Shown here: positions 1 to 30,518 of the stretch, in pieces
Layout: each line of letters opens with the position of its first letter
Position numbering within the stretch: the first letter of the stretch is position 1
Source: Planctomycetota bacterium
GTDB taxonomy: Bacteria; Planctomycetota; Planctomycetia; Planctomycetales; Planctomycetaceae
Direction: 5' to 3'
Assembly (NCBI GenBank): GCA_003671275.1
Contig: QWPB01000096.1
Span: 1 to 36,584, forward strand
Length of the DNA: 36,584 nucleotides
Translations under genes and position numbers: made by a program
The notes under the pieces: model-generated
The model's database searches: none
What the model saw: only the letters and a program-made list of their open reading frames with translations
Told to the model about the DNA's origin: nothing

Positions 1-978
1 AACACGGCGTTCATTGCCGACCGATTCCGGGGGGATATGTTCGTAGCTGCGAGCGATCCGGTTGATGGCGTGTACGTGCATTCCCCCCTTGTGGGCGAAC
101 GCACTGCGGCCCACGAACGCCTGGTTGTTCCGGACATTCATATTGGCCAGTTCGTAGATGTATCGAGACAGTTCCGTCAGCCGCTTGGTGCCATCGGGGG
201 CCAGGATTTGCTGCTGCTTTTTCAAGGCCAGATTGGCCGCGACGCTGATCAGATCCGCGTTCCCACAACGCTCTCCGACGCCATTGATCGTTCCCTGCAC
301 CTGAAGTGCTCCGTGATCGATCGCGGCCAGAGAATTGGCCACCGCCAGGTCGCAGTCGTTGTGACAGTGGATTCCCAATGGAACAATCAGTTTGGCCTTC
401 AGTTCACTGATGGTGGCGGCGATTCCCTGGGGCAGATTCCCCCCGTTGGTGTCGCAGCAGACGATGACCTCGGCCCCGGCTTCTGACGCGGCGGTCACGG
501 TTTGCAGGGCGTACTCTGGATTGGCGTTCCAACCATCGAAGAAATGTTCGGCATCGTAGAAGACGCGCCGCCCTTGCGACCGCAGGTAGCTGACGGAGTC
601 GCGGATCATCGCTAGATTCTCTTCCAGCGACACTCGCAGCACTTCCGTGACATGCAGGTCCCAGGTCTTGCCCACCACGGTGCAGACCTTGGCCCGAGTA
701 TTCATCATCGCCTGAATGCCGGGATCTTCGGCGGCGGTGACTCCTTTTCGACGAGTCATCCCGAACGCACAGACCACCGCATGTTTCAGCGGCATGTCGG
801 CCACCCGTTGAAAATATTCGGTGTCCTTGTCATTGGAACCCGCGAAACCCCCTTCGATGAAGTCAAATCCCATCTCATCAAGCTTGCGAGTGATCAGCAG
901 CTTGTCCTGGAGTGAGAAGTTGACCCCTTCTCCCTGGCTGCCATCACGAAGGGTTGTGTCGTAGAGTTGAACTCGCAT
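1..978 (-). CDS. cimA: Citramalate synthase (partial, N-terminal 326 codons)
   Basis: The gene runs off the left edge. CimA condenses pyruvate with acetyl-CoA to citramalate, the first step of the threonine-independent route to isoleucine. The ATG at 978 gives MRVQLYDTTLRDGSQGEG, the metal- and substrate-binding start of the LeuA/CimA/homocitrate synthase TIM barrel. It is followed by the CimA-style FIEGGFAGSN segment. Further on are CCDTNGG and GIHCHNDCDLAVANS (metal-binding His pair), then GTINGVGERCGNADL and SAFAHKGGMHVHA. The early block resembles CimA more than 2-isopropylmalate synthase, because LeuA proteins usually have an IEVGFP-like segment there. The C-terminal regulatory domain lies outside the window. 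An attenuator with Ile codons upstream supports an isoleucine role. The alternative, another DRE-TIM lyase such as homocitrate synthase, is less likely. Confidence 0.9.
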   Translation of the reverse strand, partial: MRVQLYDTTLRDGSQGEGVNFSLQDKLLITRKLDEMGFDFIEGGFAGSNDKDTEYFQRVADMPLKHAVVCAFGMTRRKGVTAAEDPGIQAMMNTRAKVCTVVGKTWDLHVTEVLRVSLEENLAMIRDSVSYLRSQGRRVFYDAEHFFDGWNANPEYALQTVTAASEAGAEVIVCCDTNGGNLPQGIAATISELKAKLIVPLGIHCHNDCDLAVANSLAAIDHGALQVQGTINGVGERCGNADLISVAANLALKKQQQILAPDGTKRLTELSRYIYELANMNVRNNQAFVGRSAFAHKGGMHVHAINRIARSYEHIPPESVGNERRV

Positions 979-1030: not shown

Positions 1031-1106
1031 GCCGCACTGGCAACGGGTGGTTTGAGAATGTTTCCGGGATAGGCGGGATTGTCGGTCCGACTGCCAGAAA
1101 CGACAA

Positions 1107-1134
1107 AACCTCAGGTCGTGGGCGACCTGAGGTT
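1107..1134 (-). terminator. Intrinsic terminator of the cimA leader (attenuator stem 3:4)
   Basis: On the minus strand, arm AACCTCAGGTCG (1134-1123), loop CCCA, and arm CGACCTGAGGTT (1118-1107) form a perfect 12-bp stem. The T-rich stretch TTTTGTCGTTT follows at 1108-1098. No minus-strand gene ends upstream of it. The only gene downstream is cimA, about 120 bases on. This position suits a leader terminator better than an end-of-operon terminator. Confidence 0.75.
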
Positions 1135-1172
1135 GGGATGACTCGTGTTGTGCGAGAACCCTCAGTGTCGCC
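1121..1172 (-). promoter_or_regulatory. Antiterminator pairing that competes with the cimA leader terminator
   Basis: The minus-strand segment GGCGACACTGAGGGTT (1172-1157) covers the last codons and stop of the leader ORF. It can pair with AACCTCAGGTCGCC (1134-1121), which contains the whole 5' arm of the terminator. The pairing has 14 base pairs with two single-base bulges (A1166, G1159). The segment is almost a copy of the terminator's 3' arm, so the two structures exclude each other. A ribosome reaching the leader stop would cover the segment and allow termination. A ribosome stalled at the Ile codons would leave it free to antiterminate. The pairing was worked out by eye, without folding energies. 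Confidence 0.65.
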
Positions 1173-1209
1173 GGAGCGCAGCAATAATTCGAATGCCACC
1201 GCTCATCAT
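1162..1209 (-). CDS. cimA leader peptide, 15 codons, isoleucine-containing
   Basis: This short minus-strand frame reads MMSGGIRIIAALRRH and stops with TGA at 1164-1162. Three of its 15 codons are Ile, all ATT (positions 6, 8 and 9). Its stop lies inside the antiterminator segment, just before a perfect terminator hairpin upstream of cimA. That is the layout of leader peptides in ribosome-mediated attenuators of branched-chain amino-acid operons. No Shine-Dalgarno is visible before either ATG (1209 or 1206), which is common in this phylum but weakens the call. Arg is also frequent (3 codons), so Ile as the sensed amino acid is an inference supported by the cimA product. Confidence 0.6.
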   Translation of the reverse strand: MMSGGIRIIAALRRH

Positions 1210-1307
1210 CAAGCGGTCGGAGCAAATCGAAATCGATCGCAGAGCGGACACCACAGACCTCGGCAGATCAAGTGCAGAGAAGTACCGATTCTCACACCCG
1301 ATACCTT

Positions 1308-1336
1308 AGCTTACCCCACACCCCGGAAAAGGTCAA
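1308..1336 (-). promoter_or_regulatory. Candidate sigma-70-type promoter for the cimA leader
   Basis: On the minus strand TTGACC (1336-1331) matches five of six -35 consensus bases. After exactly 17 bases comes TAAGCT (1313-1308), a weak -10 element with three of six matches. Transcription would begin near 1300, giving about 90 bases before the leader peptide. The elements were found by eye only. Confidence 0.35.
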
Positions 1337-1435: not shown

Positions 1436-2572
1436 ATGTCGCATCGAAGCTGGAGCTGGTTGGTGGTAGGACTGTTCTGGAGTGGAGCGCTGGTAGCAGC
1501 TGCCGAGCCTGCGGCAGGCCCTTCCGTAGAAGAAATGCATCTGCTCGACCCGGTTTGGGAAAGTGAAGTCATCTACGGTGAAAGTACGGTCCTGCTGCAG
1601 GCGAAGAGCGGTGGGCCGCTCGTCGGTCGGTTGGCCTGTCCTGTCGCGGAGATCCTGGAGGTCCGCAACTCGAATCGCGAACAGTCCTATGATGTGTCGC
1701 GGCAGGTCACGTTGCAGCCGGACGGAACCATCGAACTGGCTGTTGATACGAAGGCTCCGTTCCTCACGATGGGCGATCTGTTTCCACCGACCGGGGCTCC
1801 GATGAGCTACAAGCATCGGGTGAACCAGCCGGATGTCTCACTTCTTTATGGACCGGGGCGTTGGTTTCACGACCATCAGGTGGAAGTGACCTATCGTCGG
1901 AAATTGACCCCATGGAAGGGGACGGTTCCCCGATTCGCCGCCGGGCAGTTGCCCCGGACTATCGCCCGTCTCAAGGCAGGGGAACCACTGATCATCGGCG
2001 TCAGTGGAGACAGCATCTCCGCGGGTGGTGATGCGTCGGGGCTCAATAACGTTGCTCCCCATCAACCCGCGTTTCCGGAGCTTGTCACGCGACAGCTTCG
2101 AGCCAGTTATCCGGGGACGATCACATTGAAGAACCGGGCGGTAGGCGGCTGGAGTATTGCCAACGGGAATTCGGACCTGGAGGCTCTATTGGCCGAGAAG
2201 CCCCACCTGATCGTGATGGCGTATGGGATGAACGATGTCGGACGCCGTGATCCAGCCTGGTTCAAGGGACAGGCGGAGCAGTTCATTCAACGGGTGCGTG
2301 CGGCTGATCCGACCATCGAGTTAATTTTGGTAACGCCGATGCTGGGACACGTCGAGTGGGTTCACACGCCGCGTGACATGTTCTTTCAGTATCGGGACGA
2401 ATTGCAGTCGCTGTGTGGTCCCGGAATTGTCATGGCGGATCTGACATCCGTGTGGCATGAACTGTTGCAGCACAAGCACGATCTGGATCTGACGGGGAAT
2501 GGGCTCAATCATCCGAATGACTTCGGTCACCGGCTGTATGCTCAGGCATTGCTGTCGCTGCTGGTCGAGTAG
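1436..2572 (+). CDS. Secreted SGNH/GDSL-type hydrolase
   Basis: This is a 378-residue exported hydrolase, probably an esterase or carbohydrate deacetylase. The ATG at 1436 is preferred over the in-frame GTG at 1415 because GGAGA ends 7 bases before it and because a signal peptide follows directly (hydrophobic WLVVGLFWSGALVAAAEP). An N-terminal beta-rich region of about 160 residues precedes the SGNH fold. The fold shows block I GVSGDSIS with the nucleophilic Ser, an Asn in NRAVGGWS, block III MAYGMNDVG, and block V GLNHPNDFGH with the catalytic His. The Asp usually three residues before that His is not present; Gly is there instead. Substrate cannot be told. It is divergent from cimA and convergent with the next gene. 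Confidence 0.8.
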   Translation: MSHRSWSWLVVGLFWSGALVAAAEPAAGPSVEEMHLLDPVWESEVIYGESTVLLQAKSGGPLVGRLACPVAEILEVRNSNREQSYDVSRQVTLQPDGTIELAVDTKAPFLTMGDLFPPTGAPMSYKHRVNQPDVSLLYGPGRWFHDHQVEVTYRRKLTPWKGTVPRFAAGQLPRTIARLKAGEPLIIGVSGDSISAGGDASGLNNVAPHQPAFPELVTRQLRASYPGTITLKNRAVGGWSIANGNSDLEALLAEKPHLIVMAYGMNDVGRRDPAWFKGQAEQFIQRVRAADPTIELILVTPMLGHVEWVHTPRDMFFQYRDELQSLCGPGIVMADLTSVWHELLQHKHDLDLTGNGLNHPNDFGHRLYAQALLSLLVE

Positions 2573-25501: not shown

Positions 25502-25863
25502 AGGCCGATCCCACAGCGTTCTTCAACAAGCTCCCAAGCCCCTCACATCACTGTAGAGTCCTCGCCATGAGTTGTACCGTCCGTCGAGAGCGGGGGCAGA
25601 GAACCGTCTCTGTTTATTCCTCTGACGCCCGCCCGGCCGGATCGCCCGGACGGTTTGCAGTAACTCGCAATCGTCGTTTTTGATACGATACCGGTGCGCA
25701 GTCACTGCTAAAATTTCGGGTGCGACGAATCAGCCGAAGCTCGCTCGCGTCCGGTTCCCACAAGGGGACGAGCGTCCCCGAGCGGATTGGCACGACCCGA
25801 ATTCAGAGCATTGATCCAGCACTCGACAACCCGCTGAACCATTGACTCCCGGGAGTGATCCCC
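25502..25863 (+). other. Intergenic region of 362 bases before the DUF1501 gene
   Basis: No convincing gene is present. GGGGAC and GTCCCC (25764-25769, 25774-25779) form a 6-bp stem with loop GAGC and no T-tract. A 12-base palindrome, ACTCCCGGGAGT, at 25845-25856 contains the ribosome-binding site of the DUF1501 gene. The short frame at 25567-25683 has no supporting feature. Confidence 0.5.
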
Positions 25864-27315
25864 ATGCCTCAAATTCCCTCGGCTCACACTGCAGTGCCAC
25901 GTCGCGAGTTCATGGACTGGGTGGGGCGCGGGATTGGCGGTGCGGCCTTGGTGTCGCTACTGGGGAGAGAGTTTGCCAGCGCGGCAGGGACTCCCCCCGA
26001 GTCGTCGATTCCCTGGCCGCATCATCCGGCCAAGGCTAAACGGGCCATCCATATCAATCTGTTTGGCGGGCTGAGTCAGGTCGACACCTTCGACTACAAG
26101 CCCGAACTCGAAAAATACCACGGCAAAAAGTACAGCGGAATCGAGTCCGCAGACGTGTTCTTTGGCCAGATCGGGCTGTTGCGGCAGAGCGATTGGGCCT
26201 TTCGACAGCGGGGGGAATCTGGTCTGTGGATCTCGGACCTGTTCCCACATCTGGGGGGTGTCGCCGATGAGTTGTCGATCATCCGCTCCATGTACGCTGA
26301 GACTTCGAATCACACCCCAGCCACGTTTCAGGAGAACAGTGGATTCCGATTAAACGGATTCCCCACAGCAGGTGCCTGGATCTCTTACGGGATGGGGGCG
26401 GAGACGGAAGACCTGCCCGCCTACGTGGTGATTCCCGACCCGCGTGGGCTTCCCGCCGGAGGCTCCATCAACTGGACCAATGGATTTCTCCCCGCCCGGC
26501 ACCAGGGCGTCATCCTGCGCAGCCAAGGGAAAGCCGTTGACGATCTGGTTCCCGCCCGCGAAATCGCCGCAGCCACCGATACCGCTTCGCGCGAGCTGCT
26601 CGATCGGCTCAACCGCCAGCACCTGGAGAGACATGGAGCCGAGGATGTCTTTTCTGCCCGTATTCGCAGCTATGAACTGGCGGCCCGCATGCAGCTGGCA
26701 GTCCCCGAGGTGACTGACCTGAATGGTGAGACCGAGGCGATCCATCAGCAGTACGGACTCGACAAGGACGAAACCCGCGATTTCGGGCGCAGCTGTCTGC
26801 TGGCTCGAAGGTTGCTGGAGAAGGGAGTCCGGTTCATCCAGCTCTATTCCGGTGGGGCATTCGGCTCCCCGCGAATCAACTGGGACGGGCACGAGGACAT
26901 GAAGAAGAACCATGGGCAAGAGGCTGGCCGAATCGATCTGCCACTGGCCGGGTTGATTCGCGACCTGAGGCAACGCGGGATGCTGGAGGACACGCTCCTG
27001 ATGTTTACCAGCGAGTTCGGACGCACCCCCTTCACGCAGTCGGGCTCAGATGTTCTGGGAATTGGTCGCGACCACAATCAATATGGGTTCAGCGTTTGGC
27101 TCGCCGGAGCGGGACTCCAGCACGGAGTCGCCTACGGATCAACCGATGACATCGGCTGGAAAGCCGTCGAGAACCGGACCCACTGGCACGACTTTCACGC
27201 CACGGTTTTGCATCTACTGGGGATCGATCACACGCGACTGACATTTTACCACAACGGCATTAACCGCCGTCTGACGAATGTCCATGGGGAACTGATCCAG
27301 GGCGTACTGGCGTAG
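25864..27315 (+). CDS. DUF1501 protein (alkaline-phosphatase-like fold), Tat-exported
   Basis: The ATG at 25864 has GGAG ending 8 bases upstream and gives 483 residues. A twin-arginine signal is visible (Arg13-Arg14 in VPRREFMDWVGRGIGGAAL). The mature protein shows DUF1501 blocks: AIHINLFGGLSQVDTFDYKP, GVADELSIIRSMYAETSNHT, GVRFIQLYSGGAFGSPRINW, DTLLMFTSEFGRTPFTQSG, RDHNQYGFSVWLAGAG and HWHDFHATVLHLLGIDH. The His/Asp/Arg residues in these blocks match the metal-binding arrangement of sulfatase/phosphatase-fold relatives. It therefore folds outside the cytoplasm. In planctomycetes such genes often follow DUF1549/DUF1553 cytochrome partners. None is adjacent here. The substrate is unknown. Confidence 0.92.
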   Translation: MPQIPSAHTAVPRREFMDWVGRGIGGAALVSLLGREFASAAGTPPESSIPWPHHPAKAKRAIHINLFGGLSQVDTFDYKPELEKYHGKKYSGIESADVFFGQIGLLRQSDWAFRQRGESGLWISDLFPHLGGVADELSIIRSMYAETSNHTPATFQENSGFRLNGFPTAGAWISYGMGAETEDLPAYVVIPDPRGLPAGGSINWTNGFLPARHQGVILRSQGKAVDDLVPAREIAAATDTASRELLDRLNRQHLERHGAEDVFSARIRSYELAARMQLAVPEVTDLNGETEAIHQQYGLDKDETRDFGRSCLLARRLLEKGVRFIQLYSGGAFGSPRINWDGHEDMKKNHGQEAGRIDLPLAGLIRDLRQRGMLEDTLLMFTSEFGRTPFTQSGSDVLGIGRDHNQYGFSVWLAGAGLQHGVAYGSTDDIGWKAVENRTHWHDFHATVLHLLGIDHTRLTFYHNGINRRLTNVHGELIQGVLA

Positions 27316-27501
27316 CCGGCTCCTGGGAATTCGCCTGAGGTTGACTCGGTTTTCTCAGCGGTTCCAGAATCCCGTTGGGAATTCAACTCCGCTGGGGCCG
27401 ATGAATTTGGAACGTGTTGATGGATTCCCGGTTGAGACCCACATCAAGGGCAGGGCGTGTTCCAGGCAATTCTGAAGCGGCGAGCCCGTTCGTTCAGGGC
27501 A

Positions 27502-28845
27502 TCACACCAGTCCCGTCAGTGTGCCGGTAGCGTCGGCAAACTGATCGGTCTCCAGACCCATCCGCTGCGCCATCGTTAATAATACGTTCGAAAGAGGGGG
27601 GTGCTTGTCGGCATCGTGGGCAATATGTTGACCGTGCTTCAGTCCCAGCTTCTGCCCCCCCGCCACGATCGTCGGCAGGTTCTTGGGTGAATGCTCGCCG
27701 CCTTTTCCCGAGTTCATCCCACTGCCGAACAGGATCATCGTACGATCCAGCATATGGCTGTCCGCTTCGCCTGTCGATTTCAGCATCGACATGAACCGCC
27801 CCAATCGTGACAGATGGAACCGGTCAATCTCCGCCAGTTTTTTGAGCATTCCCGGATCACCGCCGTGATGGGACAGCTCGTGATGGTTCTCACCGCCGCC
27901 TCCGTACCCCCCCGCTTCTCGCGACCATTCGAAGGTGATGACCCGTGTGGTATCCGTGATAAATGCCAGGTACGACAGCTCCAGCATCACGTCCAGCCAC
28001 ATGGGGCGGTCATGGGCATTGCCCGAGAGACTGTTGAGTTGCAGGCCGGTTGATGCCACGTCCGCCTTGGGCCGATCAATCCAGGACTGAAGCCGTTCGA
28101 CCTGTTTCTCGGTCTGACGAACACTCGACAGATACTCATCGAGTTTGCGGCGATCCTGGGTGCCTAGCTTGCGTTCCAAGGCGGCGGCCTCGCCAGCCAC
28201 GTCATCCAGAATGGAACGCCGTTCGTTGTACCGCTTTTGCGTTGCGACCCGGTCGCCCGCCGATTCCGGTACGAACAGCCGTTCAAATAACCGTTGCGGC
28301 GAGTTCTCGGACGGGAGTGGCGTACCGTTCAGATCGAATGACAAGGTGTGGCTGTGACCCGCTCCACCCGTTCCCGATTGATCGCCCAGCTGAAGCGAGG
28401 CGTAACGGGTTTCCTGTCCGTGCTTTTGAGCGACGAACTGGTCGATCGACTGTGTGTTTGTGTAATCCGCGCCGGGCTTGGCTTTGAGGTAAGCCGCGGT
28501 GAGCCAGGTATCCGCGCCGCTGTGGCCGCCTTCGGAAGCGGGATGTCCCAGCCCCGTTAGAACGCTGAAATCCGCGCGGTGTTCGGCGAGCGCTTGCAAC
28601 GTGGGAGACAGCGTATAAGTGCTCCCGCTTTCGGCAGGAACCCAGTCCAGTATGTTGACACCGTTCGGAATGTAACAACAGATCATTCGGGGTTGGACGA
28701 CATTCGATTGAGCCCACGGTTTGAAGGTCGATGGGGCTGCCAGAGCATGGGGGAGCATCGCATCGAGAAATGGCAGCGAGAGGGCCACGCCCGCTGCCTG
28801 GAGCAGATGACGACGCGAGAGCGGCCGGGTGCGGATGTGAAACAT
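27502..28845 (-). CDS. DUF1552 protein, Tat-exported
   Basis: The ATG at 28845 has AAAGG about 6 bases upstream and gives 447 residues starting MFHIRTRPLSRRHLLQAA, with a twin-arginine motif (Arg11-Arg12) and hydrophobic ALSLPFLDAM. Family blocks follow: RMICCYIPNGVNILDWVP, EHRADFSVLTGLGHPASEGG and HSGADTWLTAAYLKA. Later come ERKLGTQDRRKLDEYLSSVR, AFITDTTRVITFEWSREAGG and NHHELSHHGGDPGMLKKLAE. The end has LFGSGMNSGKGGEHSPKNLP. DUF1552 is related to DUF1501 and shares the exported metallohydrolase-like layout. It is convergent with the DUF1501 gene and 80 bases downstream of purF. No enzyme activity is known to me. Confidence 0.92.
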   Translation of the reverse strand: MFHIRTRPLSRRHLLQAAGVALSLPFLDAMLPHALAAPSTFKPWAQSNVVQPRMICCYIPNGVNILDWVPAESGSTYTLSPTLQALAEHRADFSVLTGLGHPASEGGHSGADTWLTAAYLKAKPGADYTNTQSIDQFVAQKHGQETRYASLQLGDQSGTGGAGHSHTLSFDLNGTPLPSENSPQRLFERLFVPESAGDRVATQKRYNERRSILDDVAGEAAALERKLGTQDRRKLDEYLSSVRQTEKQVERLQSWIDRPKADVASTGLQLNSLSGNAHDRPMWLDVMLELSYLAFITDTTRVITFEWSREAGGYGGGGENHHELSHHGGDPGMLKKLAEIDRFHLSRLGRFMSMLKSTGEADSHMLDRTMILFGSGMNSGKGGEHSPKNLPTIVAGGQKLGLKHGQHIAHDADKHPPLSNVLLTMAQRMGLETDQFADATGTLTGLV

Positions 28846-28925
28846 GTGAGACCTTTCATCCCAAGGATCACCGATCCGTGCCGACGGTCGCGGAGAAACG
28901 CACCGGTGCGGTGGCCCAGCTTCCA

Positions 28926-30518
28926 TTATCCCAGAGGAACCGGCGTCGGATTACAGGACACACGGTCGACCACACGCATGTCGGAGTCGCTGTTCAGCGA
29001 CAACTGGTAACATTCCTTGCCGGCTTCGGTCGGGTACTCTCCGGTCAGGCAGGCTCGGCACAGCTTGCTGGGCTTCATGTCGACCGCCTCTTCGATGGCG
29101 GACAACGGCAGGTATTTGAGTGTCGTGGCCCCCATCTCTTTTGCCATCGCGTTTTCAATTTCGGGGGTGATCGGGCCGCCTTGCAGGAATTGTGGGGCGT
29201 ACAGTTCCTTCACCTTGGTCATGTCGATCCCGTAGAAGCATGGGGCAATGATCGGGGGACAGGCCACCCGTACATGCACTTCTGCCGCTTTCCCCCGCTC
29301 GAACAGCTGGGAGATGAGCGTTTTCATGGTGGTGCCGCGGACAATGGTGTCCTCGACCAGGAGAACCTTTTTCCCCTCCAGCACTTCGCGGAGTGGGGTG
29401 TACTTCATCTGGGCCTTGCCACTGCGGTTCGTCCCCTCGATAAAGGTCCGCCCGACATAGCGGTTGCGGATCAACCCTTCAACGCTGGGAATCCCCAAAC
29501 GGTACGCCATGGCATCGGCAGCGGCCTTGGCGGTGTCCGGAACGGGAACGACGATCCAGTCGTCCTTGTCATTTTCCGGGGAGAACTGTTCCTGTTCGGC
29601 CAGCTTCTCGCCAAGCATCTTGCGAGTCAGGTAAACGCTGCGGTCGTCGAGTGTACTGGAGACGTTCGCGAAGTAGATCCACTCGAAAAAACAGTGGGCG
29701 GTGACCGGCGTTTCGGCATACCGTTCCACCCGCAATTTACCGTTCTGAATGATAATGGCATGGCCCGGTGGCAGGCTCATGATTTTGTCGCGGGAAAAGC
29801 CCAGGTTCGCGAGGGCCACACTCTCGCTCGCCGCCGCGAACATCCCGTCCTCTTCGGCCCAGCACAGCGGACGCAATCCCAGCGGATCTCGCGAGACAAA
29901 CATCTCGCCTAATGCGTTCAGGAAGACAATGTTATAGGCCCCATCCAGACGCGGCTGAAGCCGCTTGAGCAGATCCAGCAGGTCGCTCCGGGGCTGCTTC
30001 GCGATCTCCTGTCCCAGCAGATGGAGGAGGATTTCCGTGTCGGTGTCCCGGCTCAGGTGGAAGTCCCCCTGGGTCAGCACTTCCTGCTTCAACTGCTGGT
30101 AGTTGGCCAGTTGGCCGTTGAATGCAAACGCAAAGCATTTCCGCTTTTCGAGATGGTGCCGCTCGAACGGCTGCGCGTAGTTGCGATCATTTTTGCCACA
30201 GGTGGCGTAACGGACATGCCCGATCGCGGCTGGTCCCGTCAGAGATTTCATCAGTCGCTCAGCTTCCTCCTCGTTTTGCAGGTGGAAGACTTCATTAACA
30301 ACGCCGACATCCTTGTGGGTCTCAACCAGATTCGAGGCCCCGGGCAGATGCACCGACATCCCGGCAGCCAGCTGTCCCCGGTTCTGAATATCCAGGAGCA
30401 GGCGGGGCATCAGCCGCGACGAGGCGTTGGGCCCCAGCTTGGGGGCCAGTGAACTGGCCTTGTCCTGAGCCAGGTGGTAGATGGCAGCAATGCCACACTC
30501 GTGGAACAACTCAGCCAT
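28926..30518 (-). CDS. purF: Amidophosphoribosyltransferase
   Basis: PurF makes 5-phosphoribosylamine from PRPP and glutamine, the first committed step of purine synthesis. The ATG at 30518 gives [16 protein letters not shown], with a 7-residue propeptide before the nucleophilic Cys8, as in the self-cleaving Bacillus-type enzymes. An upstream start would only lengthen that tail. Glutaminase residues are seen in [23 protein letters not shown] and [13 protein letters not shown]. The PRPP site is [14 protein letters not shown]-terminal Cys residues ([24 protein letters not shown]) fit the iron-sulfur ligands of Bacillus-type PurF. The length of 530 residues is slightly above usual. No Shine-Dalgarno is visible. 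Confidence 0.96.

Follow-up and report, generated by a model that had tools for sequence, protein, structure and literature searches.

A predicted ribosome-mediated attenuator with isoleucine codons upstream of cimA in planctomycetes, and its leucine-codon twin upstream of leuA

Among the enterobacterial operons, ribosome-mediated transcription attenuators are known for trp, leuABCD, ilvGMEDA and ilvBN. In these systems, a leader ORF carries codons for the pathway's end product (rare codons in leu), an antiterminator formed by regions 2 and 3 competes with a terminator formed by regions 3 and 4, and the leader stop codon is near region 2. The predicted device described in this report resembles them in all of these respects. 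Unlike them, it precedes cimA, a gene of the pyruvate route to isoleucine, it is found in the phylum Planctomycetota, and no 1:2 protector hairpin is consistently predicted. Riboswitches and T-boxes also switch terminator/antiterminator pairs. T-box leaders are similar in that they respond to tRNA charging, as we infer for the cimA device, by means of a terminator switch; however, they bind tRNA directly, and the cimA device has no Rfam match.

The leader-peptide systems described by Naville and Gautheret (2010, PMC2965389) likewise combine a leader peptide with a terminator before amino-acid genes. Passages of that article mention Proteobacteria and Actinobacteria as well as new his leaders of Firmicutes, and term counts in its main text give zero occurrences of "planctomyc", "cimA" and "citramalate". 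The main text of PMC8632094 also has zero occurrences of "planctomyc" by term count. Open-access titles and abstracts, a scope that takes in few subscription papers, yielded no description of a planctomycete or cimA leader-peptide attenuator, and there is no Rfam family for it. An earlier note on this DNA, which knew of no described cimA attenuator in the phylum, is in agreement with this result.

In this report, we analyze a stretch of 36,584 nucleotides from a bacterium of the family Planctomycetaceae (contig QWPB01000096.1), hereafter the window, together with corresponding loci in other genomes. The region upstream of cimA in the window is very probably a ribosome-mediated transcription attenuator. 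Its elements, their conservation and their covariation are observed, and from these we infer ribosome stalling and readthrough.

The elements are listed in Table 1. An Ile-rich predicted leader ORF and an intrinsic terminator are located before the gene, and an antiterminator, whose 5' strand lies at the leader stop codon, is mutually exclusive with the terminator. Three elements on which the earlier note was based are present as it described them, namely the -35-like sequence with 17-base spacing, the segment over the leader stop codon, and the perfect 12-bp terminator followed by T-rich sequence. The terminator arms (1134-1123 and 1118-1107) enclose a 4-nt loop. The antiterminator had been put at 14 bp; its pairing with the terminator 5' arm is indeed strong, but this length is slightly generous, as we count 12 pairs (GGCGAC and CTGAGG) around one unpaired A. 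The duplex between region 2 and the terminator 5' arm has a predicted energy of -23.8 kcal/mol, which is equalled by 0 of 60 shuffles, and the leader fold, terminator included, is better than that of all 200 shuffles (z = -3.5). The product of cimA, of which only 326 aa are present before the contig end, matches TIGR00977 with an E-value of 1.8e-133 and 445.6 bits, compared with a cut-off of 450.

Table 1. Features of the window in and around the region upstream of cimA
Feature	Position	Strand	Remarks
Promoter-like pair	1308..1336	minus	-35 TTGACC at 1336-1331, 17-base spacer, -10 TAAGCT at 1313-1308
Leader ORF, predicted	1162..1251	minus	29 codons, (M)SALRSISICSDRLMMSGGIRIIAALRRH, probably from a GTG at 1251; TGA stop at 1164-1162
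Region 2, antiterminator 5' strand, GGCGACACTGAGGGTT	1157..1172	minus	overlaps leader stop; pairing and covariation
Region 3, terminator 5' arm and partner of region 2, AACCTCAGGTCGCC	1121..1134	minus	
Region 4, terminator 3' arm, CGACCTGAGGTT	1107..1118	minus	
T-rich tract after hairpin, TTGTCGTTTC	1097..1106	minus	
cimA, citramalate synthase	1..978	minus	cut by contig end, 326 aa present; TIGR00977
GDSL-like lipase gene, divergent	1436..2572	plus	

Two further observations concern other parts of the window. A strong hairpin at 20445-20410 on the minus strand (GGTGGGTC..GACCCACC) lies downstream of an ORF at 21678-20518; it has a pairing segment and no Ile or Leu leader, and is probably a gene-end terminator. 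At 25855-28926, a DUF1501 gene on the plus strand faces a DUF1552/HXXSHH gene on the minus strand.

The leader had been proposed as a 15-codon ORF with three ATT codons. Such an ORF, with Ile codons and a stop, does run from ATGATG at 1209, with ATT at 1194, 1188 and 1185, but its ATG start is not kept in the same-genus loci L003 and L004, in which other codons occupy the position of ATGATG. In both loci, the frame stays open further upstream and includes a shared ISIC segment, and the sole ATG, GTG or TTG codon in the L003 frame is a GTG aligned to window position 1251. Therefore, the window leader probably starts at this GTG and has 29 codons, of which five, all ATT, encode Ile (at 1233, 1227, 1194, 1188 and 1185). 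By comparison, ATT accounts for 2 of the 17 Ile codons in the window's own cimA.

Homologues of cimA are present in 56 of 59 related genomes. We assembled upstream regions for the best 30 of these 56 matches and, from named contigs, for the 80 best of 208 matches. The resulting 110 loci (L002-L111) include the window and some species twice, and represent the best-scoring matches, not a random sample. A strong terminator was detected at threshold in 89 of the 110, and none was detected in 16, one of which has only 9 nt of upstream sequence. Of the 84 distinct loci that passed the terminator filter, 77 have their best pairing segment within 40 nt of the terminator, and in 46 of the 84, no more than 2 of 60 shuffles equal the pairing.

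With openness as the only criterion for the leader frame, a leader was obtained in 76 of these 77 loci (all except L082). Ile constitutes 16.1% of codons in these leaders, versus 3.6% in other frames; for other amino acids, the corresponding ratios are 2.0-fold (Val), 0.63-fold (Leu) and 3.6-fold (Met). At individual loci, the Ile count is significant relative to dinucleotide shuffles (p at most 0.05) in 43 of 77 cases, with a mean of 4.5 Ile versus 2.5; this test is the weaker of the two when set against the pooled analysis, in part because a stop codon sometimes precedes the automatically chosen segment. Codon choice also differs, with an ATT:ATC ratio of 181:114 in Ile leaders versus 402:1007 in cimA genes, a contrast that, like that for Leu leaders given below, is not a literal probability, because relatives are not independent. 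The earlier note suggested looking for a conserved short ORF with Ile codons in related planctomycetes, and most relatives examined keep this ORF, a stop at the segment, the antiterminator and the terminator.

Inspection by eye removed L074, L081, L082 and L084 from the 77 loci, although the pairing in L081 is in fact good (z = -2.2), and the remaining 73 (alignment A1) were used to analyze promoters, protector hairpins and covariation. Upstream of the leader, the best pair of a TTG-type -35 and a -10 spaced 16 to 18 bases apart reaches p of at most 0.05 against Markov controls in 58 of the 73 loci, a set of which the window is a member, and the promoter-like pair in L032 has the same letters as that in the window. 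By the same rule, there is no such pair in L003, and the pair in L004 is weak (p = 0.62).

A leader ORF of this kind might instead encode a peptide that, by TnaC-like nascent-peptide arrest, itself responds to isoleucine or to some other ligand, so that tRNA charging would play no part. Neither the ORF nor the RNA switch would be different under such a mechanism. However, the peptide sequences vary widely between families, and what recurs is the Ile content, the codon choice and the position, which makes nascent-peptide arrest very unlikely.

Covariation in the two alternative stems also supports the attenuator reading. Across the 73 loci, 11 of the 12 terminator pairs exhibit changes on both sides, and the terminator scores 0.396 versus 0.197 when shuffled. 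For the antiterminator, 75.4% of cells are paired, and the score is 0.220 versus 0.162 (0 of 500 shuffles reach 0.220). Both stem scores fall when partners are slid by one column. Because the shuffles take no account of relatedness and the structure comes from the window itself, these scores constitute support, not proof. The compensatory changes proposed for both stems are thus seen in the scores, but not in the antiterminator's double-change pairs (7 versus 6.0 in shuffles) or its pair types, neither of which is in excess over shuffles.

A corresponding arrangement with leucine codons is found upstream of leuA, which is present in 55 of the 59 genomes. When the cimA RNA model, R1, was run on 21 genomes, the six matches inspected comprised four before leuA and two ordinary gene-end terminators, both in the window's own genome. 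Given that two of six matches are ordinary terminators, we make no claim of homology from R1 scores. The protein downstream of the Leu leader is 2-isopropylmalate synthase; the two proteins tested score above the cut-offs of the NCBIfam models NF002086 and TIGR00973. Among the best 30 of 56 leuA matches, 29 loci have both a strong terminator and a leader; the exception, L223 (214 nt), has no terminator. Leu makes up 27.0% of codons in these leaders, versus 8.3% in other frames, and Ile is present at 1.18-fold. Applied to 82 cimA loci, the same script gives 16.3% Ile versus 3.1% (5.2-fold) and 0.62-fold Leu. The codon CTA accounts for 38 of 191 Leu codons in Leu leaders versus 2 of 956 in leuA genes, with the same reservation about relatedness. 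In the window's own genome, for example, a MTHTIDLLGLLLLASFGKS leader, a TAG stop, a pairing segment and a terminator precede leuA (L227, G000:C149).

In a leuA alignment of 27 loci (A2, with L203 and L210 left out), the terminator covaries (0.416 versus 0.231 shuffled). The leuA antiterminator pairs in 83.9% of cells, and no measure of its covariation in the 27 loci is above shuffles. This match of Leu codons to leuA and Ile codons to cimA is the specificity that sensing of charged tRNA by the codons would predict. The two genes thereby provide an internal specificity control, in that Ile codons precede an enzyme of isoleucine synthesis, and Leu codons precede its relative in leucine synthesis. 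Taken with the conserved ORF, the position of its stop, both stems and their covariation, the Leu-codon device at leuA supports the trp/ilv/leu-type logic that was first proposed for the locus.

As control genes, we used ilvB (14 of 15 matches, with L244 excluded as below the cut-off) and trpE (14 matches above the cut-off, from which L249, cut by a contig end, was excluded). A strong terminator is found in the same upstream interval in 84 of 108 cimA and 28 of 29 leuA loci, versus 1 of 14 ilvB and 0 of 13 trpE loci. We also considered attenuation of amino-acid genes in general, and rejected it because ilvB and trpE are without the device.

The cimA site could be an ordinary terminator accompanied by an ORF and a pairing segment that arose by chance. 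Strong terminators are common at gene ends, as the two R1 matches of this type illustrate. Moreover, in a search of nearly the whole window on both strands, three terminator-like sites were found at threshold, and in each of them a segment pairs strongly with the 5' arm (-21 to -24 kcal/mol). Pairing by itself therefore does not distinguish the cimA site. Of the three, the cimA site is the only one in which three or more Ile codons are followed by a stop at this segment. On the sequences compared, the case for a cimA attenuator is stronger from relatives than from this within-window chance test. The gene upstream, which encodes a GDSL-like lipase, is divergent, so the cimA terminator cannot serve any upstream minus-strand gene. 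Also, the Ile-rich ORF, the pairing segment and the promoter recur in relatives, with covariation, and ilvB and trpE lack this set. An ordinary terminator is therefore extremely improbable. Scarcely credible, too, is a metabolite- or tRNA-binding RNA (a riboswitch or T-box) that drives the terminator and leaves the ORF incidental, since, for all that such RNAs use terminator/antiterminator pairs, neither the window nor 20 cimA loci nor a further set of 18 leuA and 2 cimA loci gave an Rfam match at the gathering score, a permissive search of positions 900-1500 gave only two unrelated weak matches (E = 0.22 and 3), and codon identity fits the pathway at both cimA and leuA.

To establish the taxonomic range of the putative attenuator, a further 52 cimA loci were scored by a rule that calls for a terminator and an ORF with at least three Ile codons, which misses some loci judged by eye (L165). 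The further loci include 25 of the remaining 26 matches in related genomes (G041, which is partial, was left out) and 25 of 26 outside the class (G149 was left out). Within the class Planctomycetia, the device is present by this rule in 4 of 6 loci of the window's family, and in 5 of 6, 2 of 3, 2 of 4 and 1 of 1 loci of families f3, f4, f5 and f7, respectively. Family f2 (L177-L182 and L186) has cimA, and the rule finds the device in 0 of 7 loci. Outside the class, it finds the device in 3 of 25 cimA loci, for example MNIQNIIISIIINIGGD in L151. For leuA, a terminator and a 7-Leu ORF are present in 3 of eight genomes, six of which belong to f3. At the expected site before cimA in L060 (Gemmatales), there is a hairpin (CCCTGTGGTCC..GGCCGCAGGG) without a T-run after it, and the terminator rule consequently finds none; this hairpin might be a stop of another kind or a terminator that has been lost.

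The predicted switch would operate as follows. Polymerase would start approximately 7 bases after the -10 sequence TAAGCT (an assumed distance), and then transcribe a leader of probably 29 codons. With ample Ile-tRNA, the ribosome would get to the stop codon inside region 2 and cover this region, and the 12-bp terminator would form before cimA. With scarce Ile-tRNA, the ribosome would stall at the ATT codons. If the last ATT were in the A site, the leading edge of the ribosome would end directly before region 2, which would then be free to pair with the emerging terminator 5' arm, and polymerase would continue into cimA. Readthrough into cimA would depend on the ribosome and on charged tRNA-Ile.

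We folded the nascent RNA with a ribosome mask of 15 bases on each side of the P site (an assumed size). In this mask model, the antiterminator has a probability of 0.885 when the A site is at the last ATT and 0.000 when it is at the stop codon. Folding with and without a ribosome mask, as earlier suggested, thus separates stalling at the last ATT from arrival at the stop, but in nascent RNA free of ribosomes, formation of the antiterminator is predicted as well (P = 0.877). Once the transcript is complete, every simulated state favors the terminator, which means that a working switch has to be kinetic, with the decision made during transcription. A 1:2 protector hairpin is predicted inconsistently: upstream pairing of region 2 exceeds P = 0.5 in no more than 24 of 73 loci, and the window (0.01) is not among them. 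Pairing of region 2 with region 3 at P > 0.5 is predicted in 38 of 73 loci (0.90 in the window).

The occurrence of the device in Gemmata is relevant to the cell biology of these organisms. The three genomes of genus Gemmata in the set (L172, L173 and L174; g37 of f3) carry an Ile leader and a terminator before cimA, and that of L174 is a 9.0-Mb single contig. The evidence for Gemmataceae is mixed, because in contrast to the Gemmata loci, L106 and L072, both of Gemmataceae, have, respectively, no terminator before cimA and a terminator with no Ile-rich frame by the rule. Attenuation requires a ribosome that follows RNA polymerase; since Gemmata genomes carry the device, it bears on the disputed question of whether transcription and translation are separated. 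Gemmata obscuriglobus is said to separate the two processes (Gottshall 2014, as cited in a passage of PMC6212462). That article also states, in the part consulted, that some Gemmata ribosomes share the DNA compartment, and a passage of PMC6554331 disputes the compartment view of Gemmata. In bacteria with the device, ribosomes probably translate RNA that is still under synthesis.

As predicted from these comparisons, the cimA device belongs to a mechanism that is already known, ribosome-mediated attenuation, and adds a new lineage to it; the device is conserved, of the classical type and accompanied by a leucine twin. Leader-peptide attenuation would thereby extend to a phylum, and to a gene, in which we found no description of it, and the interest of the device lies in its distribution and in its bearing on planctomycete cell biology. 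We think it reasonably likely that paired Ile and Leu attenuation guards the related branch-point enzymes encoded by cimA and leuA in much of Planctomycetia, at cimA in Gemmata, and in some genomes from outside the class, and that Gemmata ribosomes translate nascent leader RNA, which would be at odds with full separation of transcription from translation. To the same degree, both leaders may descend from one leader-gene unit with swapped control codons.
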